Shown: positions 21,508-36,179 of the stretch, piece after piece
How positions within the stretch are numbered: position 1 is the first letter of the stretch
Layout: each line of letters opens with the position of its first letter
Origin: an uncultured Verrucomicrobiota bacterium
Lineage (GTDB): Bacteria; Verrucomicrobiota; Verrucomicrobiia; Opitutales; Seribacteraceae
Length of the DNA stretch: 64,000 nucleotides
Direction: 5' to 3'
Assembly: GCA_902580225.1 (NCBI GenBank)
Contig: CACHJU010000001.1
Span: forward strand, 102,363 to 166,362
Made by a program: the position numbers and the translations under genes
Notes under the pieces: model-generated
Seen by the model: the letters and a program-made list of their open reading frames with translations, nothing else
What the model was told of the DNA's origin: nothing
Databases searched by the model: none

Positions 21508-21681
21508 GGTACTTGGACAGAGTTCAAAATTCTCTTTTCACTTGGTGCCTACATGGATTGCATTGTTGAAATAGTAAAGATTCCCAAGGTTCAAGTATAA
21601 ATAGTAGAAATTTCTTTGTCTTAAAAAATTGATTGTTTGATATTTAATGTATAGTTGATTTTTAATAATTTGTTATTAATT

Positions 21682-24309
21682 GTGCCAACTTTTCTACACC
21701 ACAACATTCGTTTTGCCTTAACCATATTGCTTTTTATCAAAGCTCTATCGGGCTTTTGTTTACAGGTGGGTGCTGAGGACCGCTCCGAAATTAACATAAA
21801 TCCCGACCCTCCATCCTCTACTTTTTCGCCGGAGGAATCTCTTTCTAAGATTTGGGTTCCCGATGGTTTTAAACTCGAACTCGTTGCGTCCGAACCCATG
21901 ATCGAAGAACCAGTCTGCATGGCTTGGGGACCAAACGGAGAGCTGTATGTTGCCGAAATGCGGAGTTACATGCAGGATATTGATATGAGCGGTGAATTGG
22001 AACCGGTTAGTCGTGTGGTGAAATTGGTCGATTTAGATGGAGACGGGCGTATGGATAAAGTGACCACCTATCTGGATAATCTGGTTTTGCCTCGGGCAAT
22101 CCTCACGCTGGATAATAAAGTGTTGATCGGAGAACCCCCCCATCTTTGGTTGTGCGAAGACACCAATGGAGACGGAAAGGCCGATACCAAGGTCAGTATT
22201 TACGAGAATTTTAGTAAAAGAGAATCCGGGAATGTGGAGCATAAAATCAATGGTTTGCAGTGGACCATGGACAACTGGATTTACAACACAAAAAGTTCCT
22301 CTATTTTCCGATACAGGGATCAGACGATTGAAGAGAGAAAAGTAGTCTTTTCCGGACAGTGGGGCCAGACGGTAAATGATCGGGGTGAAAGCATTTCCAC
22401 CAAAAACAGTGAACCAGGTTTGGCGACCATTTTCCCTGGAAAATACTTGGGTGATCTTTCTCTTTCGAACAAGTACAGACATTTATTCGAACGAGTTAAG
22501 CTGGGACAGGGTTATGGAACCACTTGGCCGATTCAGGGAACCTCCGATTTGCAGGGTGGGCGTGGATTAGGAAGATCAGACGACGGCTCTTTACAACGGT
22601 TCACTGGAGCTTGTGGGCAGACCGTTTTTCGGGGTGACCGGCTTGGAGATAGCATGAAGGGAACCTACTGGGTTTGCGAACCTGTGGGACGGATGATCCG
22701 GTGCTCGGATGTGGACTATGACGAAGGCATGATCACCCTGCATAACCGGTTGGAGAAAGAGAGGCTCGAATTCATTGCCTCCACCGATCCTAATTTCCGA
22801 CCTGTAAATGCCTACACCGGCCCGGACGGAACTTTATATTTTATAGATATGTATCGTGGTATCATTCAGCATGGTAATTGGACAAGGAAAGGCAGCTATC
22901 TGCGTGAGGAAATCCTGCTTCGCGGTTTGGAGAAAAATGTTGGTAAAGGACGTATTTATAGATTGGTATGCGAGGATATCAAACCCGGACCGTTGCCCCG
23001 CTTAGGAAAGTCTGATGCAAAGGAATTAGTCGAAGCATTGGGCCACCCGAATGGATGGTGGCGGGACGAAGCCCAGAAACTTCTAGTTTTACGCAAGGAA
23101 ACGAATGCAATTCCCCTTTTAAAGAATATGGTGAAACAGGCGGAGAACGGCTTGGCCCGGGCTCATGCCCTTTGGACCATGGATGGAATGGGCGTATGGG
23201 ATGAGTCACTAGTGTTAAGTGCGATCAAGGATAAGGATATCGAGCTTCGTTTGGCCGCGTTGCGGATCGCCGGTGAAAGACTGCTTGATCATGAAGCTTC
23301 GGATGCCCTTCTAGATGCGGTGGGCCAATCTCTCCCTGATGATGATCTCGATATCGCTGCCCAGCGTTTGATGTCACTGAGCTTTTACAAAAAACAAACC
23401 AAAGCACATGTAGTTCGTGCGGGACACATCGAACGCGTCCTCAATGCCGCGGGAAAGTTCATCGATAAGGAAATTATTGCCAAAGCATTCATGGTGGCCC
23501 TGAATTCGGCTGAGTACATTCCTGCATTGGGATTGTTCAGTAAAGAAGGGCGCTTTCAAAATCTGGATACGCATCCGCTTCCCCAGCACCTTGCTTTTGC
23601 TTGTTTTACCTTGGCTGATGATGAGGCTTCCTTCACGGCTCTGATTGATTTTACCGCACAAACTCAATCCGGATTTCGTGCTTCGCTGCTGGAGGGATTC
23701 CGCCTCGGCACCCAAGGAGGGAGATCTGTTCCCAGAGATTTGGTTCGCTGCAAAAGTAAACCTTCCGGTTTGACGAGAATGGAAGAAGCAGGGGTTCCAG
23801 AATATAGCTTGGCGATTCTCTACGACCTTCTTACCTGGCCCGGCGATCCAAAGTACAAGCTGCAAAAGGCCTTGCCTCCTTTAAACGAATCTGAGTTGGC
23901 TCGTTTCAACAAAGGTCGTGAAATTTATCAGGGTCTTTGTGCCTCTTGTCATGGTAAGGAAGGACAGGGGGTAAACATGCCAGAACCGCAGAATCACACG
24001 ATGCTTGCACCTTCGTTGGCAGGTTCTCCGCGAGTGAATGAAAGGAATTATCGTTACTTGGCGGAAATTATTCTGAAGGGAATGACCGGGCCGATTGATG
24101 GCGTCACTTATGGGGGTGTAATGGCACCCATGGAGGCTTATGATAATGAATGGATCTCATCTGTTATGACCTTTGTTAGAAGATCTTGGGGAAACAGCGG
24201 AGCTCCAGTAAATCCCAAAGATATTGAAAAAGTACGCGGTTGGAACAAAAAGCGATCCTCTGCGTTTACTCTGGCTGAATTGAATATACCCACTCCGAAA
24301 GCAAAATAA
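21682..24309 (+). CDS. PVC-type membrane-bound dehydrogenase with HEAT-like region and C-terminal cytochrome c
   Basis: 875 residues if started at GTG 21682; the frame has no ATG early on and a TTG at 21655 is an alternative. The N-terminus has a signal peptide (FALTILLFIKALSGFCL). Residues about 55-400 form the beta-propeller of the PVC 'putative membrane-bound dehydrogenase' family (IWVPDGFKLELVASEPMIEEP; MAWGPNGELYVAEMRSYMQD; LVDLDGDGRMDKVT; YTGPDGTLYFIDMYRG). An alpha-helical HEAT-like region follows (HPNGWWRDEAQKLL; ELRLAALRIAGERLL). The end is a cytochrome c domain with CASCHGKEGQG near 755. The architecture suggests periplasmic oxidation of a sugar or sugar alcohol with electrons passed to heme; the cofactor and substrate are unproven. 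It is 6 bases ahead of the ThuA gene. Confidence 0.9.
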   Translation: MPTFLHHNIRFALTILLFIKALSGFCLQVGAEDRSEININPDPPSSTFSPEESLSKIWVPDGFKLELVASEPMIEEPVCMAWGPNGELYVAEMRSYMQDIDMSGELEPVSRVVKLVDLDGDGRMDKVTTYLDNLVLPRAILTLDNKVLIGEPPHLWLCEDTNGDGKADTKVSIYENFSKRESGNVEHKINGLQWTMDNWIYNTKSSSIFRYRDQTIEERKVVFSGQWGQTVNDRGESISTKNSEPGLATIFPGKYLGDLSLSNKYRHLFERVKLGQGYGTTWPIQGTSDLQGGRGLGRSDDGSLQRFTGACGQTVFRGDRLGDSMKGTYWVCEPVGRMIRCSDVDYDEGMITLHNRLEKERLEFIASTDPNFRPVNAYTGPDGTLYFIDMYRGIIQHGNWTRKGSYLREEILLRGLEKNVGKGRIYRLVCEDIKPGPLPRLGKSDAKELVEALGHPNGWWRDEAQKLLVLRKETNAIPLLKNMVKQAENGLARAHALWTMDGMGVWDESLVLSAIKDKDIELRLAALRIAGERLLDHEASDALLDAVGQSLPDDDLDIAAQRLMSLSFYKKQTKAHVVRAGHIERVLNAAGKFIDKEIIAKAFMVALNSAEYIPALGLFSKEGRFQNLDTHPLPQHLAFACFTLADDEASFTALIDFTAQTQSGFRASLLEGFRLGTQGGRSVPRDLVRCKSKPSGLTRMEEAGVPEYSLAILYDLLTWPGDPKYKLQKALPPLNESELARFNKGREIYQGLCASCHGKEGQGVNMPEPQNHTMLAPSLAGSPRVNERNYRYLAEIILKGMTGPIDGVTYGGVMAPMEAYDNEWISSVMTFVRRSWGNSGAPVNPKDIEKVRGWNKKRSSAFTLAELNIPTPKAK

Positions 24310-24315
24310 GAGTTT

Positions 24316-25281
24316 ATGAAGCCAGCCCAGTATTTCCTTCTGTTGGTCTATTTCATGGCTTCCTTTTTGTGGGGAGCTAAAGTGGAGCGGGATCTGTCTG
24401 CTCCCAAAGGAGGGTGGGTACCTCCAACAGAGGAGGAATTAAAAAAGGTCGAGTCCGCGATTCCAGAAAAGTTACCAGCAGAACCGAGGAAAGACCGGAA
24501 ACTCCTGATCTATAGCCTCAGTCACGGATTCAAGCATAACTCCCGGTTGATCGGCGAAGAAATGCTCAAACGGATCGAGCGTAAAACCGGTGCTTTTACC
24601 CTGACCATTAATAACGATTCAACCCAGTGGACTTCAGGTTACCTAAAACAGTTTGATGCGATTGCGGTATTGAACGCCACTAGCCTGCATGGGGGCTTCA
24701 AAGGCGAAAGCCGTGAGGCTTTCCTTAACTTCGTATATGAAGGCGGTGGCTTATTCGGATGCCATGCCGCCACTGACGGTGGAAAAGATAAGTGGCCAGA
24801 GTATTCGCAGCTCTGGGGTGGTGCATTTGGCGGCCATCCTTGGGGTAAAACCGGCACTTGGCGAATACGAAACTATGACCCGAGACATGCCATAAACCGG
24901 TGTTTTCACGGAGAGGGATTTGACATTAATGATGAACTGTACCGGCAGGTTCATCCTTATAAAAAAGGTAACTTCCATACCTTGACATGCATCGATCTTT
25001 CAGCGAGGCAGAACACCCATAACAACAACGGTAAAATCAAAACCGTCCCTCCCGAAGCGGAACGGAAGCCCGGTGAACCCAACCCCGTTAAAGTCCCCCT
25101 CAATTTAGAGCGTGAATATCCAACTTCCTGGTGTAAAAAAGCACGCAAGGGACGCGTCTTTTATGCCACTTTCGGGCACAATGAATCGGCTTATTGGAAC
25201 CCTAAGATCGTTGAGCATTACCTTCGCGGACTTCAATATGTTCTTGGTGATCTTGAGGCCGATGATGTGCCGGACCGCTAA
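24316..25281 (+). CDS. ThuA-domain protein, exported
   Basis: A 321-residue protein with a signal peptide (MKPAQYFLLLVYFMASFLWGA) and a ThuA domain (class I glutamine amidotransferase-like fold). Visible are KLLIYSLSHGFKHNS near 57-71, FDAIAVLNATSLHG near 112-125, FVYEGGGLFGCHAATDG near 138-154 including the Cys at the nucleophile elbow, WGGAFGGHPWG near 167, and GRVFYATFGHNESAYWNP near 285. ThuA-type proteins take part in uptake or modification of trehalose and other disaccharides in rhizobia, and are linked with 3-keto-sugar metabolism. The gene follows the dehydrogenase-cytochrome by 6 bases and precedes the tandem sulfatase block by 55, so co-expression is likely. I infer a role on oxidised sugars. 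Confidence 0.9.
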   Translation: MKPAQYFLLLVYFMASFLWGAKVERDLSAPKGGWVPPTEEELKKVESAIPEKLPAEPRKDRKLLIYSLSHGFKHNSRLIGEEMLKRIERKTGAFTLTINNDSTQWTSGYLKQFDAIAVLNATSLHGGFKGESREAFLNFVYEGGGLFGCHAATDGGKDKWPEYSQLWGGAFGGHPWGKTGTWRIRNYDPRHAINRCFHGEGFDINDELYRQVHPYKKGNFHTLTCIDLSARQNTHNNNGKIKTVPPEAERKPGEPNPVKVPLNLEREYPTSWCKKARKGRVFYATFGHNESAYWNPKIVEHYLRGLQYVLGDLEADDVPDR

Positions 25282-25336: not shown

Positions 25337-26953
25337 ATGGAAAATTTATTTAATCCTTTTTCTTATAATGTCCGCCTTTTGAAAACATTGGGAGCGATTT
25401 TGGCACTACCTCTCATCTTAAAAGCATCCAAATCTCCGAACTTTGTCTTGGTGTACATGGATGATCTCGGTTGGGCAGAGACTTCGGTTGAAATGATCAA
25501 GGGGCGCGAGGATACGCGGAGTGATTTTAACCGGACTCCCAATGTGGAAAGGCTGGCCCGCGAAGGAATGGTCCTGTCATCCTGCTATTCCCCTTCGGCC
25601 TTGTGTGCTCCGTCTAGAAATAGTCTGCTCCATGGAATGACGCCTAGTCGGTTGAGGTATACCGTACTTTCCGCGGTGGAAGCCCAGAAGCAATACTTGG
25701 GTCAAATTACCATTCCACAGGCTTTGAAGAAAGCGAATCCCAGTTATAGGACCGCTCATTTTGGCAAGTGGCATAACGAAAGTATTAAACCAACCGAGGC
25801 TGGTTATGATGTGACTGATGGTCCGAATGGAAATGGACCGGGAGACTTTGATGATGACGGTAAAACCCATCTCCCGAATGACGACCCGAAACGAATCTTT
25901 TCCCTGACCGAAAAGAGTATCGACTTCATGAGGAAACAGATTGAGGCGGATAAGCCTTTTTATCTACAGCTTTCCCATTATGCGATGCACATTTGGCACG
26001 ATTCGCTGGAGGAAACCCGTCAGAAATACCTTAAATTGCCCAAAGGTAGGAAGTACGAAAAGAAAGATGATCTCCCTGAAATTGAAGTTCCCATTGCCAT
26101 GTATAACCATGGATGGATTATCAATTATGCGGCCATGCTTGATGATGTGGACCGGGCTATGGGAACATTATTGGATTCAATCGATGACCTGGGGATAGGA
26201 GAAAATACATATTTTATTTTTACCTCTGATAATGGAGGCGGATTTCGGGGGAACGCACCACTTAAGCAGGGTAAGGGTAGCTTGTATGAAGGTGGAATCC
26301 GGATGCCTTCTCTGGTCCGCGGACCCGGTATAAAGAAAGGGAGCTATTGTAATGTCCCAGTGGTGCAGTGGGATTTTCTACAAACTTTTTATGACTTGGC
26401 AGGCGGTACGGATCCACTGCCTAAGGATTTGGACGGAGGGAGTTTGCGTAATGTTTTTCAAAAGGGAAACAAGGGACGGGTAAAACGAAATACGAAGGAA
26501 TTAATCTTTCACTTTCCCTGGCACACTGGTGTGGCCGAGTCTGTCATTCGCTCCGGTAAATATAAACTACGCAAGGATTTGGATTCTCTGGAAATTGAGT
26601 TGTTCGATATTAGCAAGGACATCGGCGAGGAGACTGATTTAGCTGCAGCAATGCCCGATTTGGTTCGTAAGCTCGATCAAAAACGAACACAATACCTGAA
26701 AAAGGTAAATGCTGAGACGGTTACCTTAACCCGACGCAATTATGTTGAGCTTCTTGAGGGAGGATGGATCGAAAATGGGAGGAAACGGTTGGCAAAGCTC
26801 AAGGCTGAAATGATCCGTGATCCCTCCAATAAGCAAATAGCCTTTCAGGTGGGAATTTCCCAGAACCATGTCAATTTTCAAGACAAACAACTCGAAAGAT
26901 CCAAACGCCTGATCCAAATGCATGAGGATCGTGGAACTGCGGATAAAAACTGA
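25337..26953 (+). CDS. Sulfatase, tandem copy 1 (CAPSR)
   Basis: First of four tandem paralogous sulfatases. It starts with a hydrophobic leader (about 13-30), then NFVLVYMDDLGWAETSV at 35-51. The formylglycine motif C90-APSRNSLLHG is canonical (codon at 25604-25606), and FGKWHNES keeps both Lys and His of the active site. TSDNGGGF near 298 and LKQGKGSLYEGGIRMPS follow. The stretch DDPKRIFSLTEKS is shared with copies 2-4 and marks the subgroup. After the fold comes a C-terminal tail of about 75 residues, rich in Lys/Gln/Glu and probably helical. It is 538 aa long, with a gap of 5 bases to copy 2. This is the only member of the block with a standard catalytic set. Confidence 0.92.
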   Translation: MENLFNPFSYNVRLLKTLGAILALPLILKASKSPNFVLVYMDDLGWAETSVEMIKGREDTRSDFNRTPNVERLAREGMVLSSCYSPSALCAPSRNSLLHGMTPSRLRYTVLSAVEAQKQYLGQITIPQALKKANPSYRTAHFGKWHNESIKPTEAGYDVTDGPNGNGPGDFDDDGKTHLPNDDPKRIFSLTEKSIDFMRKQIEADKPFYLQLSHYAMHIWHDSLEETRQKYLKLPKGRKYEKKDDLPEIEVPIAMYNHGWIINYAAMLDDVDRAMGTLLDSIDDLGIGENTYFIFTSDNGGGFRGNAPLKQGKGSLYEGGIRMPSLVRGPGIKKGSYCNVPVVQWDFLQTFYDLAGGTDPLPKDLDGGSLRNVFQKGNKGRVKRNTKELIFHFPWHTGVAESVIRSGKYKLRKDLDSLEIELFDISKDIGEETDLAAAMPDLVRKLDQKRTQYLKKVNAETVTLTRRNYVELLEGGWIENGRKRLAKLKAEMIRDPSNKQIAFQVGISQNHVNFQDKQLERSKRLIQMHEDRGTADKN

Positions 26954-26958
26954 TAACC

Positions 26959-28668
26959 ATGATTATGCCTTTTCTAATTTCCATATTTTGGCTCTTTGTC
27001 ACCCCGCTTTGCCTATCGGCAAAGGCACCCAATTTTATTCTCATATATGCCGATGATCTTGGCTACGCGGACACATCGGTACAGATGATGGATGCCGAGC
27101 CCTCGACTCGTAATGATTTCATTCAAACACCCGGAATCGAACGGCTCGCTCAAATCGGAGCCCGCTTTACCGCGGCATACGCTCCATCACCTACCTGTAC
27201 CGCATCCCGAATCAGTATTCAGCACGGTCAGTCGACCGCCAAGATTCAGTACCGGAATGTTTTTGATGTTCTTTCTGTCGTTCAGCGTCCGGATGGCTAC
27301 GATGCTGAAGTGACTATTCCCGAAATGTTGAAAGAATCTGGGAAGAACTACATCACCGCTCATTTTGGTAAAGGATGTAGTGCAATGGGACGATTTGACG
27401 AGGCCGGTTACGATATTACCGATGAAAACCCAGGTGAACCGGGAGGCAATGGCAACGGGCATGGTTCCTATTGGGATCCGATTAAGGACAAAACCCCGTT
27501 TCCCCCGGACAATCCGAAACGGATGCACTCGTTGCGAAAAGATGCTGCAGACTTCCTCAAGAAACATGCCGGAAAGCGGCCCTTCTTTATGATGGTTTCA
27601 CATTACGCACCGCATATTCCTTTTGTCTGCACACGGGAGGCTTTTGAACGAACTAAAAAGCGGTGGATCGCAGCAGGATATGATACCAAAGGCCTGGTAG
27701 AACTAAACGATGATCCGGTTAACAATCCGAAAGGAGAAGCAAATAAAAAGATTACCTATGCAGCCATGGTGGAGGAAATGGATCTCACATTGGTCGATGT
27801 GCTTGATGCGCTTGAGCAAACAGGTGAACTGGAGAATACCTACATTATCTTTACCTCTGATAATGGAGGCGGTTATGCCGAAAATCGGAAAGTGGATGGA
27901 GCAATCCGTAGGTTTAATGGTCCTTTGCAAGAGGGCAAACGTTCGATTTATGAGGGTGGGATCCGTGTGCCCACCGTCATATCTGGGCCAGGGATTAAAG
28001 CGGGTTCGCAATGCGATGTGCCCATCGTACAGTGGGATTTCCTACCCACCTTTCATGACCTGAGCGGGAGTGAGGCACCTATGCCTCCAAACACGGATGG
28101 AGGAAGTTTGCGTCAGGTATTTAAGAAAGGGAACAAGGGAAAGGTCAAGCGGGTTGCACCGGGAATTATCCATCATTACACCTGCCACTACCATCCGCCG
28201 ATCAGTTCAATCATTATGGGTGATTATAAATTGATGCGTCATTTAAACTCCAATGAATTTAAATTGTTTAACTTGAAAACGGACTATCGCGAGGAAAAGA
28301 ATTTGGCATCCACCATGCCAGAGAAGGTTAAGGAAATGGATCAGGTTTGCCGGAAATATGTCAAGAAAGTGGATGGCGGAACGGCTGAACAGGTTAGACA
28401 GGCACACCATAAACTAATGGATCATTTCAGCCAGCAGTCTATTGACGGATACAAGAAAAAGTTAGCGGCTCTCAAGGAACAGAACCTTTCTGATTTTGAA
28501 GATCGTAAAGCTGATATGCTTAAGGAGTTGAACCAAAATCTTTTCAAAAATGTTGTGAACAAGGAAAAAACAAATGTTCACCGAACCCTTTATTCATGGA
28601 GAGAGGGGCCGGAAAAGAATGAGGCCGAAAAAAATGCCCGTATCAAATTTGTAGAATTTAGCGAGTAA
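26959..28668 (+). CDS. Sulfatase, tandem copy 2 (CTASR, GKG)
   Basis: 569 residues with a signal peptide (about 1-20; LFVTPLCLSAKA), NFILIYADDLGYADTSV at 25-41, and the formylglycine motif C80-TASRISIQHG (codon at 27196-27198) with Ala in place of Pro. The GKWH motif is replaced by HFGKGCSAMG, so the His that normally assists catalysis is absent at that spot. SHYAPHIPF, TSDNGGGYAE and LQEGKRSIYEGGIRVP are preserved. The substrate-side stretch NGNGHG is shared with copy 4. A helical C-terminal tail of about 90 residues (SQQSIDGYKKKLAALKEQ and onward) follows the fold. The gene begins 5 bases after copy 1. It is most likely an active but specialised sulfatase. Confidence 0.9.
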   Translation: MIMPFLISIFWLFVTPLCLSAKAPNFILIYADDLGYADTSVQMMDAEPSTRNDFIQTPGIERLAQIGARFTAAYAPSPTCTASRISIQHGQSTAKIQYRNVFDVLSVVQRPDGYDAEVTIPEMLKESGKNYITAHFGKGCSAMGRFDEAGYDITDENPGEPGGNGNGHGSYWDPIKDKTPFPPDNPKRMHSLRKDAADFLKKHAGKRPFFMMVSHYAPHIPFVCTREAFERTKKRWIAAGYDTKGLVELNDDPVNNPKGEANKKITYAAMVEEMDLTLVDVLDALEQTGELENTYIIFTSDNGGGYAENRKVDGAIRRFNGPLQEGKRSIYEGGIRVPTVISGPGIKAGSQCDVPIVQWDFLPTFHDLSGSEAPMPPNTDGGSLRQVFKKGNKGKVKRVAPGIIHHYTCHYHPPISSIIMGDYKLMRHLNSNEFKLFNLKTDYREEKNLASTMPEKVKEMDQVCRKYVKKVDGGTAEQVRQAHHKLMDHFSQQSIDGYKKKLAALKEQNLSDFEDRKADMLKELNQNLFKNVVNKEKTNVHRTLYSWREGPEKNEAEKNARIKFVEFSE

Positions 28669-28696
28669 TATCAATTTCAAAATACTAGTTTAACTT

Positions 28697-30367
28697 ATGA
28701 AAAATTTTTGGTTTCGATTCTCTCTCTTAATCCTTTGTGCTTTCTCGTCTTTGGCTAAGGATGCTCCCAATTTCATCATAATTTACATGGATGATCTGGG
28801 CTGGCATCAAACTTCCGTTCGAATGATGGATTCAGAACCGTTGTCCAAGCATTCTTTTTACAAGACACCCAATGTGGAACGCCTGGCCAAAATGGGTAGG
28901 TGTTTCTCCAACGGCTATGCACCCACTGCGACTTGTACGGGATCACGCGTGAGCATATTATTTGGCCAAACATCCGCCCGTACCCATTATCGATATGTGT
29001 TTGATGTCTTTCATCAAAAGCAACGCCCCGAGGGTTATGCCGGACAATATTCTCTAGCGGATTCAGTAAAGACTGCCGGTAAGAATTACATCACGGCCCA
29101 CTTCGGCAAGGGGATGACTGAGAAACTCAAGCTTGTGAATTATGATGTTACCGATGAATACGAAGAGCATGCACCTAATGGTAATTTACATGGTGAAAAA
29201 ATTGATATTTCTTCACGCAAGGATCTCCCGCTGGACAACCCGAAGCGAATCTATTCACTGATCGATGAATCGATGAAATTTCTCAAGAAACATGCCGGAA
29301 AGCGTCCGTTTATGATGATGGTTTCCCATTATTCGGTTCATGTCCCACATGCTGCGACCCAAAAATACATGGACAAATGGCAGGCAAGATATGATGCCCT
29401 CGAAAAACCTAAAGACAAGGAGGAGTTGAGGCTTTTTGAAAGGGAATGCAATCCTCTGTACGCAGCCATGTTGGAAGAAACGGATCAGCACATTGGCATC
29501 CTTCTTGATTATCTCAAAAATGCGGGAGAGCTGGATAACACTTATTTCATTTTCACTTCAGACAATGGAAGTGAATGCATTCCGCGTACCAAGGAAAATC
29601 GTCGCTACAACGGCCCACTTCAAGAAGGGAAGTACTCTTGCTTTGAAGGGGGGATTCGCGTGCCTTTTGTGGTGGCAGGCCCGGGAATCAAGGGCGGCAC
29701 TTATTGTGATGTTCCGGTTGTTCAGTGGGATTTGCTTGCTACTCTGCACGACTTGTGTGGTAACAATACACCTTTGCCTGATGATATCGACGGGGGTAGT
29801 TTGAGGGATGTCTTTTTCAAGGGTAACCATGGAAAGGTTAAACGCCGGGCACCGGGAATTGTTCATCACTTTCCAAGTCATTACCAAGTGCCCATTAGTG
29901 CCATTCGAATAGGAGACTATAAGTTCATGCGTAATATGAACACGGATGAAAAGAAACTTTTCAATGTTGCGGTCGATTACCGCGAGAAGAATGATCTTGC
30001 TCAAAAAATGCCCGAAAAAGTGGCCTCTATGGATAAGATTCTACGAGCCTATATCGAGGAGGTTGATGGGGGGGATGTGAAGGACAGCTATCAGGCATTT
30101 TATGAAACTATGGATGATTTCGAAGGTCGGGCGGTAAAGGACCATCAGCGTAAAATGAAAGACCTCGAAGCTAAGATGCCGAGCGACTTCGAACATCAGA
30201 AATCCCTGATTAATCTGGAATTAGAGCTTAAAAAGCGTAGCTTTTATGCGAACCGAGAGATCACTAAAAGGCAGGAAACTTGGCCCGGTTGGTATGACAC
30301 AGCCCGTAAAACCGCGGAAGCAGAAATCGGTATGACCAAAGGTGGGAAGCTGATCAAAAAAAAGTAA
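28697..30367 (+). CDS. Sulfatase-like protein, tandem copy 3 (CTGSR, GKG)
   Basis: 556 residues with a signal peptide (LLILCAFSSLA) and NFIIIYMDDLGWHQTSV at 25-41. The formylglycine position is C80 but the motif reads C-T-G-S-R (codons 28934-28948): Gly sits where CxPxR or CxAxR sulfatases have Pro or Ala. The GKWH motif is HFGKGMTEKL, again without His. SHYSVHVPH, TSDNGSECIP and LQEGKYSCFEGGIRVP remain. Everything else in the fold is kept, with no stop or frameshift, so the gene is not decaying in an obvious way. Whether an FGE would still convert C80 is uncertain. A helical tail (DHQRKMKDLEAKMPS) closes the protein. It lies 28 bases after copy 2. Confidence 0.88.
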   Translation: MKNFWFRFSLLILCAFSSLAKDAPNFIIIYMDDLGWHQTSVRMMDSEPLSKHSFYKTPNVERLAKMGRCFSNGYAPTATCTGSRVSILFGQTSARTHYRYVFDVFHQKQRPEGYAGQYSLADSVKTAGKNYITAHFGKGMTEKLKLVNYDVTDEYEEHAPNGNLHGEKIDISSRKDLPLDNPKRIYSLIDESMKFLKKHAGKRPFMMMVSHYSVHVPHAATQKYMDKWQARYDALEKPKDKEELRLFERECNPLYAAMLEETDQHIGILLDYLKNAGELDNTYFIFTSDNGSECIPRTKENRRYNGPLQEGKYSCFEGGIRVPFVVAGPGIKGGTYCDVPVVQWDLLATLHDLCGNNTPLPDDIDGGSLRDVFFKGNHGKVKRRAPGIVHHFPSHYQVPISAIRIGDYKFMRNMNTDEKKLFNVAVDYREKNDLAQKMPEKVASMDKILRAYIEEVDGGDVKDSYQAFYETMDDFEGRAVKDHQRKMKDLEAKMPSDFEHQKSLINLELELKKRSFYANREITKRQETWPGWYDTARKTAEAEIGMTKGGKLIKKK

Positions 30368-30414
30368 ATTACCGACTTATCTCAAAAGATTTTATTTCTC
30401 TACATTAATTACTC

Positions 30415-32022
30415 ATGAAAATATTCACCCTCGGCAGTTTAACTTTAATCCTATCCTGCTTCTGTCTCTATGGAAAGAAAGCTCCCAACTTCATCCTCAT
30501 CTATGCTGATGATCTGGGCTATACCCAGACGAGTGTTCCAATGATGAAGGATCGTCCTGAGCTTGGTCATTCCCTGCATCAGACCCCAAATTTGGAAAAG
30601 TTGGCAAAGCGAGGTATGCGTTTTTCGAACGCCTATTGTCCATCTCCGGTTTGCACCTCTTCCCGGGCAAGTATCCAGTTTGGAATGACTACCGCTCGGG
30701 TGGGTTGTGTTTCCATTCACGATGTGGTGATGAATAAAAGGCAGGTAGATTTTGAAAAGAAACTTTCCTTGGCGGAAATGCTTAAGGAATCGGGAAAGGG
30801 GTATGTAAGTGGCTTTTTTGGCAAAGGTTGCACTCCCCTCGGCTGGTTCAAGGATCATGGATATGACGAGACTGATTTCATTCACAAACACCCCAATGGC
30901 AACGGACATGGGGACTGGTGGGAACCGGCAGACAAAACCCTTATCCCACTCGATGATCCTAAACGTGTTTTCAGCTTAGCCAAGACTTCCAATGCATTCC
31001 TCGAAAAAAGAGCCAAGGATAAGAAACCTTTCTTTTTGACGATCTCTCATTATGCCTTGCATGTTCGAAATATGTCTTTGAAAAGCACCCGCAGAAAATA
31101 TTTGGATATGGTTGCTGAACGGGAAGGTATCGAGGACAAGATTCCTGACATTTCAAAGTTTGACCATAATGCTGAAGAAATGCCCCTAAAGATGCGGTCT
31201 TATTGGGAACGGGCCAATTATGCTGCGATGATGGAAAACATGGATACCTCGATTGGTATGGTGCTCGACCGGCTGAATGAACTGGGTATGCAAAAAAATA
31301 CCTTTGTGATTTTTTCTTCCGATAATGGTGGAGGAGCGAGTAATAAACCACTCCAAGGAGGGAAAGCGAGAATGTGGGAGGGTGGCATTCGGGTGCCAAT
31401 GATCGTGGCCGGACCTGGTATTCCTGTCAATTCCCAGTGTGATATTCCAGTTGCTCAATGGGACTACCTTCCGACCATGCACAAACTTTCGGGAAGTGAG
31501 GCCCCACTGCCCAAGGACTTGGATGGGGTAAACTTGCGTTCTGTCCTCAGGAAGGGAAATGAGGGAAAACTTCCCAAGCGGGACACGGGTCTGGTCTTTC
31601 ACTTCCCTGCCTACTACACGATCCCGATCACTTCTTATCGGGACGGAGATTTCAAATTAATGCGTCATTTAAACACCGGTGAGATTAAGCTCTTTGATGT
31701 GGCCAAGGACATGGGGGAAACCAAGGATTTATCCGCTTCCATGCCAGAGAAAAGAGATTCTATGGTTCGGAAACTCGATGCTTACTTGAAGAAAGTAGGA
31801 GCGTGGACTATGGAGGAAGTCTATGAAACCCGTCTTGATGAATTAAACAAATGGATCGGAGAGAAGCAGCAGCAGATTTCGGACTGTCAGAAAAAACTTA
31901 AGAATTCCCCGGATGACAAACAGATTAAAGTACAATTGAAACAGGCACAGGATTCCCTAAGCAAATTCCAAAAGACCCGTACCCATGTCCTGGCTAACCA
32001 ATCCTCTTCCAAATGGCTGTAA
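30415..32022 (+). CDS. Sulfatase-like protein, tandem copy 4 (CTSSR, GKG)
   Basis: 535 residues with a signal-like N-terminus (LTLILSCFCLYG) and NFILIYADDLGYTQTSV at 25-41. The formylglycine position is C80 in C-T-S-S-R (codon at 30652-30654), with Ser in place of Pro/Ala. FFGKGCTPLGW replaces GKWH. SHYALHVRN, SSDNGGGAS and LQGGKARMWEGGIRVP are kept. The shared subgroup stretch LDDPKRVFSLAKTS and NGNGHG are present. The C-terminal tail of about 75 residues is a strong coiled-coil candidate (KWIGEKQQQISDCQKKLKNS), longer and more regular than in the other copies. It is the last gene of the block; the next gene begins about 54 bases later with a weak start and is functionally different. Confidence 0.88.
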   Translation: MKIFTLGSLTLILSCFCLYGKKAPNFILIYADDLGYTQTSVPMMKDRPELGHSLHQTPNLEKLAKRGMRFSNAYCPSPVCTSSRASIQFGMTTARVGCVSIHDVVMNKRQVDFEKKLSLAEMLKESGKGYVSGFFGKGCTPLGWFKDHGYDETDFIHKHPNGNGHGDWWEPADKTLIPLDDPKRVFSLAKTSNAFLEKRAKDKKPFFLTISHYALHVRNMSLKSTRRKYLDMVAEREGIEDKIPDISKFDHNAEEMPLKMRSYWERANYAAMMENMDTSIGMVLDRLNELGMQKNTFVIFSSDNGGGASNKPLQGGKARMWEGGIRVPMIVAGPGIPVNSQCDIPVAQWDYLPTMHKLSGSEAPLPKDLDGVNLRSVLRKGNEGKLPKRDTGLVFHFPAYYTIPITSYRDGDFKLMRHLNTGEIKLFDVAKDMGETKDLSASMPEKRDSMVRKLDAYLKKVGAWTMEEVYETRLDELNKWIGEKQQQISDCQKKLKNSPDDKQIKVQLKQAQDSLSKFQKTRTHVLANQSSSKWL

Positions 32023-32075: not shown

Positions 32076-33065
32076 TTGGAAATTGAGCAGGTAGATAGTT
32101 TTATTTTAGAACGAACCAAAGCGAATCGGATTACGAACCGGGTCGAAGTTCAAAGCCTTTGGAGTGGATACGGGAGTATTCAACGGGTGGACTTGGATGG
32201 AGGTGAGTTTTCAAGTATTATTGTGAAGCATGTTCAGCCTGGCAGGGGATTTCACCCAAGGGGATGGAATACAGATCTGTCTCACCAGCGAAAACTCAAA
32301 TCCTACCAAGTGGAAGCAAATTGGTACCGAAAACAGGATGTGGATTGCAAAAATGGCTTCGCACGGATTCCAGCTTGCTTGGGAACGAAGAAGGAAGGAG
32401 ATGAGGTATTACTTCTATTGGAAGATTTAGATGCTTCTGGATTTAAAGGCCGTAAGAGTTTCGTCAACCAGACTGAGTGGGAGGCATGTGTCAGCTGGTT
32501 AGCTAACTTCCATGCCGAGAATTTGGATGGGGATGCGACTGGGCTATGGGAGAGTGGAACCTATTGGCACTTGGAGACGAGACCCGACGAATTGGAGCGG
32601 TTGGATGATCAGGTAATGAAAAAGGCAGCCCCCGCGATTGCTACCAAGTTAAAAACCAATAAGTTTCAAACTCTGGTTCATGGCGATGCCAAGTTGGCAA
32701 ACTTCTGTTTCAATGCAGACGGAACTCGGGTGGCGGCAGTCGATTTTCAATATGTCGGGGCAGGTTGTGGGATGAAAGATTTAGCCTATTTTGTCGGTAG
32801 TTGTTTTCGAGATGAGGAAGCGGAAGAAATGGAGGTTGAGGTCCTTAATTATTATTTTACTCAGTTTCGAAAATTACTTGCACGAATAAATAGTGAAGTG
32901 TCTGGCCAAGAAGTTGAGGGGGACTGGCGTCCTTTATACCGTGTCGCTTGGGCTGACTTTCATCGTTTTATGAAGGGTTGGAGTCCAGGGCACTGGAAGC
33001 TCAGCGATTACAGTGAACGGGTCACCTGGGAAGTAATTGAATCCTTGCGGGAGGAAAACGCCTGA
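32076..33065 (+). CDS. Aminoglycoside phosphotransferase/choline-kinase-like kinase
   Basis: A cytosolic protein of about 329 residues with an APH/EcKinase-type fold. Visible are a nucleotide-loop-like start ([13 protein letters not shown] near 28-40), IIVKHVQP with the likely ATP-binding Lys near 50, the hinge [13 protein letters not shown] near 108-120, the catalytic motif [11 protein letters not shown] near 200-210 (HGDxxxxN), and [12 protein letters not shown] near 221-232 (DFQ in place of DFG). No signal peptide is present. The TTG start is weak and the true start is uncertain, as the frame is open upstream without an ATG. The stop overlaps the next ATG (TGATG), so it is translationally coupled to a phosphatase-like gene. 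The substrate is unknown; a small alcohol or sugar is likely. Confidence 0.78.
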
Positions 33066-33922
33066 TGGATCTCAATCGGCTAACAATTCATGCGGTAAAT
33101 GCGGCTCTTGATGCAGGTAATTTGATCAAACATTATCAGGATATTGAGGTACAAGTTTTACATAAGGATGGGGGAGACACTTATGCTTCTCAAGTGGTGA
33201 CCGAGGTGGATCAAAAAGCACAGGATGCAATCTTGCGAATTCTTACGCCGACTTGTTGTGAGTTTGATTTGGCATTACTAACTGAGGAAAGTGAAGACGA
33301 CCGTTCCCGTTTCGAGAAGAATTATTTTTGGTGTATTGATCCTTTGGATGGCACTCTGTCTTTCACTCGAGAAGAATCAGGCTATTCGGTTTCTATCGCT
33401 TTGGTTGCCCGGGATGGTTCGCCTCAAATCGGAGTGGTCTACGATCCGGTGCATGATATTCTTTGGCAGGCAACCAAAGGATACGGGGTGAAAAGGAATG
33501 GTATACCATGGAAAATGCAATCGAAGGGAAACGAGTTGGTCTTTACTTACGATCGAAGTTTTGAAGATCATCCTGAACGATTACGGGTTTTAAGGCAGTT
33601 GGAAAACTATGCTGGTTCAGTTGGACTGCAAGGGGTAGTGGCGACTCAATTCGGTGGAGCCGTAATCAATGCCTGTCATTCTCTGGAGTCGGCTCCCGGG
33701 TGTCATTTTAAATTTTCCAAGCCACAGGAGGGTGGGGGTAGTATTTGGGATTATGGAGCCACCGCTTGTCTGTATGAAGAAGCGGGTGCTGAAGTAAGCG
33801 ATGTGCATGGTAATCCACTTGATTTAAACCGGAGGGATTCAACTTTTATGAATCATGGGGGTGTTGTTTATGCTACGGATCAAGCACTTGCTCTCAAAAT
33901 TAGGGAAATTCTAAGCCTTTAA
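33065..33922 (+). CDS. Inositol monophosphatase-superfamily protein
   Basis: A 285-residue cytosolic phosphatase of the Li+-sensitive, Mg2+-dependent IMPase superfamily. Metal-site motifs are LLTEESED near 73-81, the hallmark WCIDPLDGTLSF near 92-103, and the C-terminal WDYGATACLYEEAGAEV near 232-248. It could act on inositol phosphate, 3'-phosphoadenosine-5'-phosphate (as CysQ does) or a sugar phosphate; the sequence alone does not decide. Its ATG overlaps the stop of the preceding kinase-like gene by one base, an arrangement that suggests matched production of the two. Their opposite chemistries (adding and removing phosphate) may control one small molecule. A PAP-phosphatase role would be interesting in a sulfatase-rich region but is speculative. 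Confidence 0.85.
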   Translation: MDLNRLTIHAVNAALDAGNLIKHYQDIEVQVLHKDGGDTYASQVVTEVDQKAQDAILRILTPTCCEFDLALLTEESEDDRSRFEKNYFWCIDPLDGTLSFTREESGYSVSIALVARDGSPQIGVVYDPVHDILWQATKGYGVKRNGIPWKMQSKGNELVFTYDRSFEDHPERLRVLRQLENYAGSVGLQGVVATQFGGAVINACHSLESAPGCHFKFSKPQEGGGSIWDYGATACLYEEAGAEVSDVHGNPLDLNRRDSTFMNHGGVVYATDQALALKIREILSL

Positions 33923-34016: not shown

Positions 34017-36179
34017 ATGAAAAATCTAATCCTTTTTTTACAAACATCCTGTCTTATTTTACCCAGTGTTGCCTTTGGAGGGGAGCGCCCCAACATTCTT
34101 TATTTATATGTGGATGACCTCGGTTGGGGCTCCATTGGCCCGAATGGTCAAGCTGAGAGAAAAGCGGCAGGTAAGCCCTATGTGCTTACGCCAAATTTGG
34201 ACCGCTTGGCGGAGCAGGGAATCAATTTTACCCGAGGTTATGGATGCACGGTATGCTCCCCCGCACGGTCATCGCAGCAAACCGGGTTTCATCAGGGGTA
34301 TACCTTTGCTGACCGTAATGATCCGGACAATGCCAAGAAGGCAATCCGTAAGGATGACATTACCATGGGAGACGCACTTATCAGGGCTGGCTATGCTACC
34401 GGATATTGGGGAAAGTGGGGATATGGAGGATCGAAGGATATGCAAAATCCGACTATCGATAATGTGCAGACTCTTCCCACTTCTCACGGGTACAAGTTTG
34501 TCGTCGCGGAACTCCATCATGTACGTGCTCATACCTTTTTTCAACCAACCCTTTGGAATGCACCCTCGACAGGGTGGACACCCGGATTTATTGAGCTCAA
34601 GGCTAACAGCATGGCAAAATACAGGAATCAACAGTCTTATTCGAATTATCCTGCATTTCAGAATCATCCTGAATATCCCGATCCTGCCTATTGTGATGAT
34701 GTTTACGCATTTGCTTGCCTTGATTTTGTCAGAAATCAGGCACAAGAATACAATCTTTCAGGTAAGCCATTTTTTGGCTTATTTGCGGCTCAGATTCCAC
34801 ATGCTCCTTTCAAGGAAGTGGAAAAACTTCCGAGCTGGGATCATGACTACAGAGATAAATCTTTTTTTAAAAATTTATCTCCCCAATCCCAACAGTGGTG
34901 TGCCATGGTCACACGAATCGATGCTCACTTTGGTAATATTCTGGAAGCACTCGAAGACCCGAATGGAGATGGGGATAAGTCAGATTCTGTTGCTGATAAT
35001 ACGCTGGTTGTTTTTCAATCGGATAACGGAGGTCCGGGTGGGAGTAATCGTGAACAATTAGACGCGAACGGAGGACTTCAGGGATCAAAGGGAAGTATTT
35101 ATGAAGGAGGTATTCGAGTACCCACTATAATGCGCTGGACAGAGAAAATTACTCATCAATCAAAGTTGAAAAAAGGATCGAGTACTGACTTGGTGATGGA
35201 TTGTTCGGATTTGCTACCCACTTTTTGTGAACTTGCAGGAGCACCCATTCCTCTTGGAGTGAGCGGTGTCTCCCTTGCTCCAACTCTTACAGGGAAAGGC
35301 ATTCAACGACCAAGAGATTTTTTGATTCATGAAGCAGGAAATCAGGCGTCGATTATTCAAGGGCAGTATAAATTAATTCGCCCACGTGGAGATACGAAGT
35401 CATCGGCAAGCAATAAAACGAAAAAACGAAAAAAGGAACCCGTTACCATGCTTTTTGATCTGAATACTGATCCTGCGGAGCAAAATAATCTGGCTAATGT
35501 TCACCCTCAATTGGTTAAAAAGCTTAATGCACTAATGATCGCGGAACGGGTGGATGAACCCGCAGGGTTTGCTAATACCTATCATACATGGAATGCGAAA
35601 ACCAAAAATAGTTCCCTTGGTTCCTCTTCAAATTGGTCGGAGTATATTTATGAAAATGCGGAAGTGATCTATATGAAGGAAAGTGGCGTACCCAAATCTT
35701 ACTGGTGTGCTCGGATTCAAGAGGGAACGGCAGTCGCATTGAAAGAAATTAATTTTCTAGGCCTCGAGATAAGCGGAGTTCTTGTCGTAAAGAAGGGAGC
35801 AAAAGTAAGTGCAAGAAATGAACTGAGAGTCTCTAATGCAGGGCAAGTCAACCTACAAGGAGGAATGATCGAGTCTCAACGTTGGCTTGAGATAAAAAAG
35901 GGAGGAGTGCTTAAGGGATACGGAATTGTTAAAGGGAATCTTTATAACCAAGGAACATTTGCTTTGCAGATGGACAAACCTTTACAGGTTGATGGTACTG
36001 TAAACTTATCCGGCAGGTTGGAGTTATTGAAAACAGGAACAATCAATAATGGTGAAAGTTACACCGTACTTCAGGCCAATTCGATTGCAGGTGGATTTGT
36101 AAATGATGAGGTGTCAATTGGCGGCAAAAGTTTTTCGGTCTTCTACACTCCAACCTCGGTTACCGTGAAAGCAAAGTAG
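34017..36179 (+). CDS. Sulfatase (CSPAR) with C-terminal beta-repeat domain
   Basis: 720 residues. A signal peptide (MKNLILFLQTSCLILPSVAFG) is followed by NILYLYVDDLGWGS at 26-39. The formylglycine motif C80-SPARSSQQTG is canonical. WGKWGYGG replaces GKWH (Lys kept, His missing), and QSDNGGPGG lies near 335. The catalytic fold ends near residue 520. The last 190 residues are a Gly/Val-rich repeat pattern (GVLVVKKGAKVSA; NELRVSNAGQVNLQGG; GVLKGYGIVKGNLYNQG). This resembles the beta-helix repeats of autotransporter passengers and of large Verrucomicrobia surface proteins. I infer surface anchoring or polysaccharide contact for that part. It is monocistronic by spacing (94 bases upstream, 172 downstream). 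Confidence 0.9.
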   Translation: MKNLILFLQTSCLILPSVAFGGERPNILYLYVDDLGWGSIGPNGQAERKAAGKPYVLTPNLDRLAEQGINFTRGYGCTVCSPARSSQQTGFHQGYTFADRNDPDNAKKAIRKDDITMGDALIRAGYATGYWGKWGYGGSKDMQNPTIDNVQTLPTSHGYKFVVAELHHVRAHTFFQPTLWNAPSTGWTPGFIELKANSMAKYRNQQSYSNYPAFQNHPEYPDPAYCDDVYAFACLDFVRNQAQEYNLSGKPFFGLFAAQIPHAPFKEVEKLPSWDHDYRDKSFFKNLSPQSQQWCAMVTRIDAHFGNILEALEDPNGDGDKSDSVADNTLVVFQSDNGGPGGSNREQLDANGGLQGSKGSIYEGGIRVPTIMRWTEKITHQSKLKKGSSTDLVMDCSDLLPTFCELAGAPIPLGVSGVSLAPTLTGKGIQRPRDFLIHEAGNQASIIQGQYKLIRPRGDTKSSASNKTKKRKKEPVTMLFDLNTDPAEQNNLANVHPQLVKKLNALMIAERVDEPAGFANTYHTWNAKTKNSSLGSSSNWSEYIYENAEVIYMKESGVPKSYWCARIQEGTAVALKEINFLGLEISGVLVVKKGAKVSARNELRVSNAGQVNLQGGMIESQRWLEIKKGGVLKGYGIVKGNLYNQGTFALQMDKPLQVDGTVNLSGRLELLKTGTINNGESYTVLQANSIAGGFVNDEVSIGGKSFSVFYTPTSVTVKAK

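Follow-up and report, generated by a model that had tools for sequence, protein, structure and literature searches.

In the S1 sulfatase scheme given in the available part of a review, one histidine protonates the leaving group and a histidine takes the formylglycine proton, whereupon sulfate is eliminated; the S subsite is called invariant across the family there (PMC10154612). The histidine of the GK turn is present in 81% of the family according to the accessible text of PMC5066984. Among described enzymes, the kappa-carrageenan sulfatase AMOR_S1_16A (PDB 9fo1, SulfAtlas S1_16) has the motif CSPTR together with GKWH. PyuS of Pedobacter yulinensis (7stt/7stv), which is close in fold to the proteins described here, also keeps CxPxR and GKWH, and the portion of its report available describes His113 as completely conserved in the sulfatases listed in its Table 1 (PMC8746622). 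We analysed a stretch of 64,000 nucleotides (the window; contig C1:102363-166362) from the genome of an uncultured Verrucomicrobiota bacterium (2.36 Mb, 66.6% complete). At 25337-32022 it carries four intact open reading frames side by side on the forward strand, all encoding S1-type sulfatases (copies 1 to 4). Unlike PyuS, copies 2-4 have neither CxPxR nor GKWH, and where the κ-carrageenan sulfatase has the loop RGHPE they have an NGNxHG motif.

Histidines of the GK turn and the NGNxHG loop

The four proteins match Pfam PF00884 with E-values of 2.3e-38, 3.3e-34, 1.5e-34 and 3.6e-39, respectively; the whole genome yields 85 matches to this profile. Copy 1 (25337..26953, +) has CAPSR (C90-R94, 25604..25618), FGKWH (residues 142-146, 25760..25774) and NGNGPG (residues 164-169, 25826..25843), i.e. 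a histidine in the GK turn and a proline in place of the loop histidine of copies 2-4. In copy 2 (26959..28668, +) the corresponding motifs are CTASR (C80-R84, 27196..27210), FGKGC (residues 136-140, 27364..27378) and NGNGHG (residues 164-169, 27448..27465) with His168. Copy 3 (28697..30367, +) has CTGSR (C80-R84, 28934..28948), FGKGM (residues 136-140, 29102..29116) and NGNLHG (residues 161-166, 29177..29194) with His165, and copy 4 (30415..32022, +) has CTSSR (C80-R84, 30652..30666), FGKGC (residues 135-139, 30817..30831) and NGNGHG (residues 161-166, 30895..30912), also with His165. Thus strict CxPxR and the GK-x-H histidine are found in copy 1, whereas copies 2-4 have A, G and S at the third motif position and lack that histidine. 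The original prediction, made from the letters of the window, had read the cysteine motifs, their positions and the FGKWH and three FGKG turns exactly. Its statement that the frames are intact and SDNG is kept was correct for all four copies, but EGGIRVP is found only in copies 2-4, copy 1 having EGGIRMP. The prediction had overlooked the second histidine, whose occurrence complements that of the missing one.

For the clade that the four copies define, sequences of <430 or >=760 residues and those with E >1e-60 to the clade profile were left out; removal of contained duplicates reduced it from 454 to 374 sequences. The sampling is skewed, 289 of the 374 having come from database searches that used copies 2-4 as seeds. 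Within this set, exactly one of the two histidines (in the GK turn as GKWH or GKGxH, or in the NGNxHG loop) was present in 372 of 373 evaluable members. The combination of GKG with the loop histidine accounted for 350 of the 374. The GK-turn histidine was found in 22 members (20 GKWH and 2 GKGxH), all with proline, glutamate or glycine at the loop position and all with proline as the third motif residue. The exceptions were P0269, which has neither histidine, and one truncated sequence. A third, incomplete GKGxH sequence and one additional member also fit the pattern, and another new match was a fragment without the motifs. The GKGxH lineage is nested in the GKG clade on both trees described below, although its position differs, and it was therefore counted as a second switch.

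The rest of the active site is nearly invariant. In GKG members with letters at the respective positions, Arg84 (349/349), Lys137, His216, N304, D32 and D33 show no exception, D303 and Lys317 one each, and Cys80 is found in all but one (348/349). The PF00884 match, the calcium ligands Asp, Asp, Asp and Asn, and Cys80 with Arg84 are features that copies 2-4 share with the S1 formylglycine sulfatases, and the general-acid histidine H216, K317 and the GK-turn lysine K137 are all retained. As far as residues can tell, the GK-turn histidine is absent, the loop histidine is present, the two are all but mutually exclusive and the remainder of the S subsite is preserved. Compared with the His125 (GKWH)/His149 pair of S1_16, the counterpart of His125 is missing from copies 2-4 and the loop histidine is present, offset by 5. 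The updated PROSITE-type catalytic pattern of Barbeyron 2016 matched none of the 374 clade members, copy 1 included, as against 37 of the 68 other sulfatases of the genome. One clade member with GKGM and NGNYHG (L088_9812-11506) reads GTPSR, its nucleophilic cysteine being replaced by glycine, and is a candidate dead sulfatase.

Structural models were of limited use: that of copy 3 (ma081422f9629, built on 18 sequences) had a mean predicted local distance difference test score (pLDDT) of 79.2, with values <50 at residues 155-164, and was not used for geometry. The confident model of copy 4 has two long C-terminal helices (residues 466-497 and 502-529) outside the sulfatase fold, which may possibly serve oligomerisation.

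Third motif residue, descent and selection

Beyond chance, each subfamily has its fixed states at the third motif position. Among the best 120 sequences from each of three homologue searches (2098, 5976 and 7079 matches), the copy-3 type had CTGSR in 116 of 117 with letters, the copy-4 type had CTSSR in 86 and CTPSR in 34, and the copy-2 type had CTASR in 69 and CTGSR in 49, with 2 lacking letters. A tree of 289 sulfatases, drawn from 80 named loci, the members of the genome itself and 25 database representatives, united copies 2-4 in a single clade (support 0.988), with the copy-1 clade as its sister group. A larger tree of 234 representatives, of which 174 lie in the clade that copies 1-4 define, kept this topology and gave the GKG clade a support of 1.0. 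On the 174 tips the third residue requires 18 Fitch steps, whereas 200 label shuffles gave a mean of 86 and a minimum of 75. All GKG members with letters (n=349) have G, S, A or P at this position, the canonical CTPSR occurring in 50.

Proline is the inferred root state of the clade, and copy 4 diverges ahead of the split between copies 2 and 3, so the series CAPSR-CTASR-CTGSR-CTSSR along the DNA is not a time series. Both trees thus rule out the stepwise drift along gene order which had been proposed for the cluster. The proposed linkage between the loss of proline and that of the GK-turn histidine holds inside the clade, where proline is lost only in GKG members (298/349 vs 0/22 of the rest), but not in the rest of the genome. 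After 11 of 81 rows without readable motifs were dropped, 70 sulfatases of the genome could be scored, of which 14 lack the proline and 19 the GK-turn histidine. With copies 2-4 set aside, the two losses showed no association (GK-turn histidine present/absent: 44/12 with proline vs 7/4 without, Fisher p 0.44), while p was 0.045 with them included; we therefore abandoned the idea of a general linkage. Half of the members without proline (7/14) retain the GK-turn histidine, and 12 members keep the proline without that histidine, mostly as GKWG, GKWD or GKWQ types. The third position elsewhere in the genome may be V, A, S or T, as in CWVSR, CVASR, CHSSR and CSTFR (e.g. C10:5946-7547, C10:16362-17903, C9:18359-19927 and C6:45046-46539).

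Each change taken singly has precedent: S1 sulfatases with alanine as the third residue likewise have a small residue for proline, and those with GKWG, GKWD or GKWQ have likewise lost the GK-turn histidine and kept the cysteine. What is unusual is the fixed glycine or serine, together with the complementary loop histidine.

The copies are under strong purifying selection. Pairwise dN/dS between the window genes and their orthologues was 0.044-0.067 for copy 1 (3 pairs), 0.026-0.096 for copy 2 (10), 0.022-0.063 for copy 3 (8) and 0.029-0.065 for copy 4 (15). These are the 36 finite values of 47 comparisons; of the others, 5 paired the query gene with a copy of itself and 6 were saturated. Among the finite values, several represent one gene fetched twice, and many dS values are >1. 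A dN/dS near 1 in copies 3 and 4 would have spoken against a neofunctionalised subgroup; the values of 0.022-0.065 found for them leave that reading standing. Clade support, selection and the nearly invariant catalytic residues agree with the original view of a distinct functional subgroup, and judged by its sequences the clade is a real, conserved and functional part of S1.

Activity and maturation

The reading that we favour, by a little better than an even chance, is that copies 2-4 are active formylglycine sulfatases in which the NGNxHG histidine replaces that of GKWH and the maturation motif tolerates a small third residue. Cys80 would be converted to formylglycine and sulfate esters would still be cut, the loop histidine being the predicted base for the release of enzyme-bound sulfate. 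Either FGE or, in some relatives, anSME would accept glycine, alanine and serine as tolerated alternatives to proline rather than as signs of decay, and the paralogues may act on differing sulfate positions of an algal polysaccharide. A more far-reaching version appears possible, although we would not bet on it: the histidine of the elimination step would have jumped from GKxH to NGNxHG and back once (GKGxH), the rearranged site would have freed the maturation signal from proline, and CTGSR, CTSSR and CTASR would serve hundreds of sulfatases as genuine natural signals for formylglycine formation.

Choline sulfatase offers a guide to the cost of such a change. In the available text of PMC5870055, His104 touches the nucleophile, and kcat/KM falls from 4.8e3 to 2.6 in H104A, which still turns over; the effects of K102L and H201A are far more severe. 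By its spacing from Lys102, His104 is, in our own reading, probably the GK-x-H histidine. Since H104A keeps turnover, the loss of the GK-turn histidine seems tolerable, if at a considerable cost, and a base supplied by a different loop could plausibly stand in for it.

Several observations weigh against the favoured reading. That the loop histidine would reach the formylglycine is deduced from the protein sequences, and His149 of 9fo1, which lies 5 positions before the clade loop histidine in a profile alignment, need not be its equivalent. Sister families with GKWD or GKWG on the 289-sulfatase tree retain the proline and have no NGNxHG histidine in the aligned loop, so compensation is not universal. 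About two switch events underlie the mutual exclusion of the histidines, most members share a common descent, and copies 2-4 were the seeds of the database searches. The SulfAtlas 2016 alignment, as far as the accessible text reports it (PMC5066984), has proline as the third residue in 87% of S1, alanine in 369 of 4058 and any other residue in <1% each; glycine and serine, so rare there, are fixed in large subfamilies here. A change of the motif proline to leucine lowers iduronate sulfatase activity in mice and causes disease, according to the available part of PMC10185571; leucine is bulky, while the third residue is small in each of the 349 GKG members with letters. The algal polysaccharide is a guess. 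Finally, no known maturase was found in nine of 26 genomes.

The genome itself has one PF03781 protein with the FGE cysteine pair among 10 loci read, and no TIGR03942 (anSME) match was found in its 66.6% complete sequence. After the pair this FGE reads NHSESLSPSNH instead of the TxNTPDSSTSH of the canonical type found in relatives. It begins with a lipobox-like LLASC (L031 1267-2355; C22:31485-32570) and may be membrane-anchored and extracytoplasmic. Matches to the copy-1 query at 1e-110, GKG members included, occur in 26 of 372 genomes of the order. Of 26 genomes with a match to one of these sulfatases, 17 have a known maturase: the FGE cysteine pair in 15 and anSME above the cut-off in 2 others (G508 and G317). 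Members with CTGSR and with CTSSR occur in G508 (96% complete), where the two weak PF03781 matches lack the cysteine pair. In the other nine (G407, G412, G414, G425, G397, G427, G600, G622 and G211) we found neither the FGE cysteine pair nor anSME, the PF03781 matches being read completely in G211 (7), G425 (7), G407 (5), G412 (3) and G622 (1), absent from G600, and read in part in G427 (8/11), G414 (3/12) and G397 (3/13); a canonical-FGE query gave only weak matches (<=72 bits) in these nine. Among these nine are two sulfatase-rich genomes, G211 (94% complete, 3 contigs, with a CTGSR member; loci L187, L269, L281 and L344-L350) and G425 (95% complete; L267, L279, L291 and L351-L354), in which none of the FGE cysteine pair (7/7 PF03781 matches in each), anSME or a canonical-FGE match was found. 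A third FGE-like type, RGGSFLCSDGWCSGYQPGSR, which keeps the cysteine pair and lacks the CxRYR run, was seen in G594, G563, G576 and G580 (L246-L249), three of which also have a canonical FGE.

This gap bears on the strongest alternative, that members without proline keep Cys80 unmodified, as the original prediction had considered, and that its thiol or a metal-activated water slowly hydrolyses sulfate or phosphate esters. Proline does belong to the classical FGE signal, nine of 26 genomes gave no maturase, and unmodified choline sulfatase still performs multiple turnovers (kcat 0.27 per s in the available text of PMC6189696). However, proline and other residues interchange over the 18 Fitch steps in an otherwise constant site, so that under this reading the chemistry would have had to change repeatedly; Cys80 is all but universal, CTPSR members included, and most of the 26 genomes do have FGE or anSME. 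Moreover, the gap is not one specific to the clade, as the CxPxR sulfatases of those genomes would need maturing too. We consider this alternative unlikely. A related idea, a redox or metal site of two cysteines (Cys80 and that of GKGC), is unsupported: the GKGC cysteine of the copy-4 type accompanies CTPSR (33/34) and CTSSR (85/86) alike, and the copy-3 type has Met, Ile, Ala or Val in its place (among the best 120).

Two further readings are each improbable, to about the same degree. Copies 2-4 could be catalytically silent proteins binding sulfated glycans, as had also been suggested, and both the departure of the catalytic histidine from its usual place and the failure of the published pattern to match any clade member would fit; a binder, however, would not need the nucleophile, the arginine, both lysines, the general-acid histidine and the metal ligands, all of which are nearly invariant. 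Alternatively, the clade could act on another class of esters (phosphate, phosphonate or sulfamate), the relocated histidine tuning leaving-group chemistry. PyuS has both sulfatase and phosphatase activity in the available part of its report (PMC8746622), but the numerous PF00884 proteins of the genome and the sulfatase neighbours fit the use of sulfated polysaccharides.

A dedicated or novel enzyme that modifies the Gly, Ser and Ala motifs is less probable still. The non-canonical run in the genome's own FGE and the nine genomes with neither known maturase could suggest one. On the other hand, matches to this FGE at 1e-70 or better are spread over 83 of the order's 372 genomes, only 9 of which belong to the 26 matched by the copy-1 query. 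We therefore saw no sign of a maturase tied to the cluster, such as the original prediction had suggested, and rejected a dedicated FGE of this kind. G439, moreover, has a CTSSR member and its sole own-FGE match at 1e-40 is of the canonical type. Ongoing decay under relaxed selection, for which the changed motifs themselves and the GTPSR of L088 could be cited, is all but ruled out by dN/dS of 0.02-0.10 in all four copies and by the fixed subfamily states.

Neighbourhood, distribution and significance

Upstream of copy 1 lie a DUF7133/cytochrome c gene and a ThuA gene (21655..25281, +), in the same order as in the relatives L070 and L072. Downstream of copy 4 follow an EcKL-type kinase and an inositol-monophosphatase-family gene (32076..33922, +) and a fifth sulfatase with CSPAR and WGKWG (34017..36179, +), which falls outside the clade of copies 1-4; both also lie downstream of the cluster in L070-L073, L085 and L178. 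The fifth sulfatase has the canonical proline, no GK-turn histidine and a long C-terminal part past the sulfatase domain. The full order from DUF7133 to the fifth sulfatase is kept in L070 and L072 and partially, at contig ends, in L071, L073, L085, L178 and L180, some of the compared loci being one genome fetched twice. In L180 (genome G403, C106:2815-4808) the copy-3 orthologue is in two separate pieces and looks broken or misassembled. Copies 1 and 2 remain paired in remoter genomes (L078, L080, L084, L228, L229, L231 and L232).

Matches to the copy-3 query at 1e-120, copy-2 type included, were found in 13 of 42 genomes of the family, and those at 1e-140 in 3 of 387 genomes of the phylum. 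The nearest named relatives among the fetched loci are Opitutia, Opitutales or Verrucomicrobia records with 85-88% identity to copy 3, and records of relatives make a marine habitat of the host likely. No description of the clade was found in the literature searched for CTGSR, CTSSR, CxGxR, CxSxR and CxAxR, non-canonical motifs, inactive sulfatases, histidine relocation and sulfatases of Verrucomicrobia or the Planctomycetes-Verrucomicrobia-Chlamydiae (PVC) group, subscription papers being outside its scope.

The cluster is a natural experiment on two nearly fixed traits of S1 sulfatases, the S-subsite histidine and the motif proline. The swap of histidines and the formylglycine motifs without proline are predictions. 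If they are true, the Gly and Ser motifs would widen the substrate range of FGE and anSME and would be useful for aldehyde tags, motif-based surveys would miss a whole branch of the family, and a relocated catalytic residue could be tested directly between adjacent genes.

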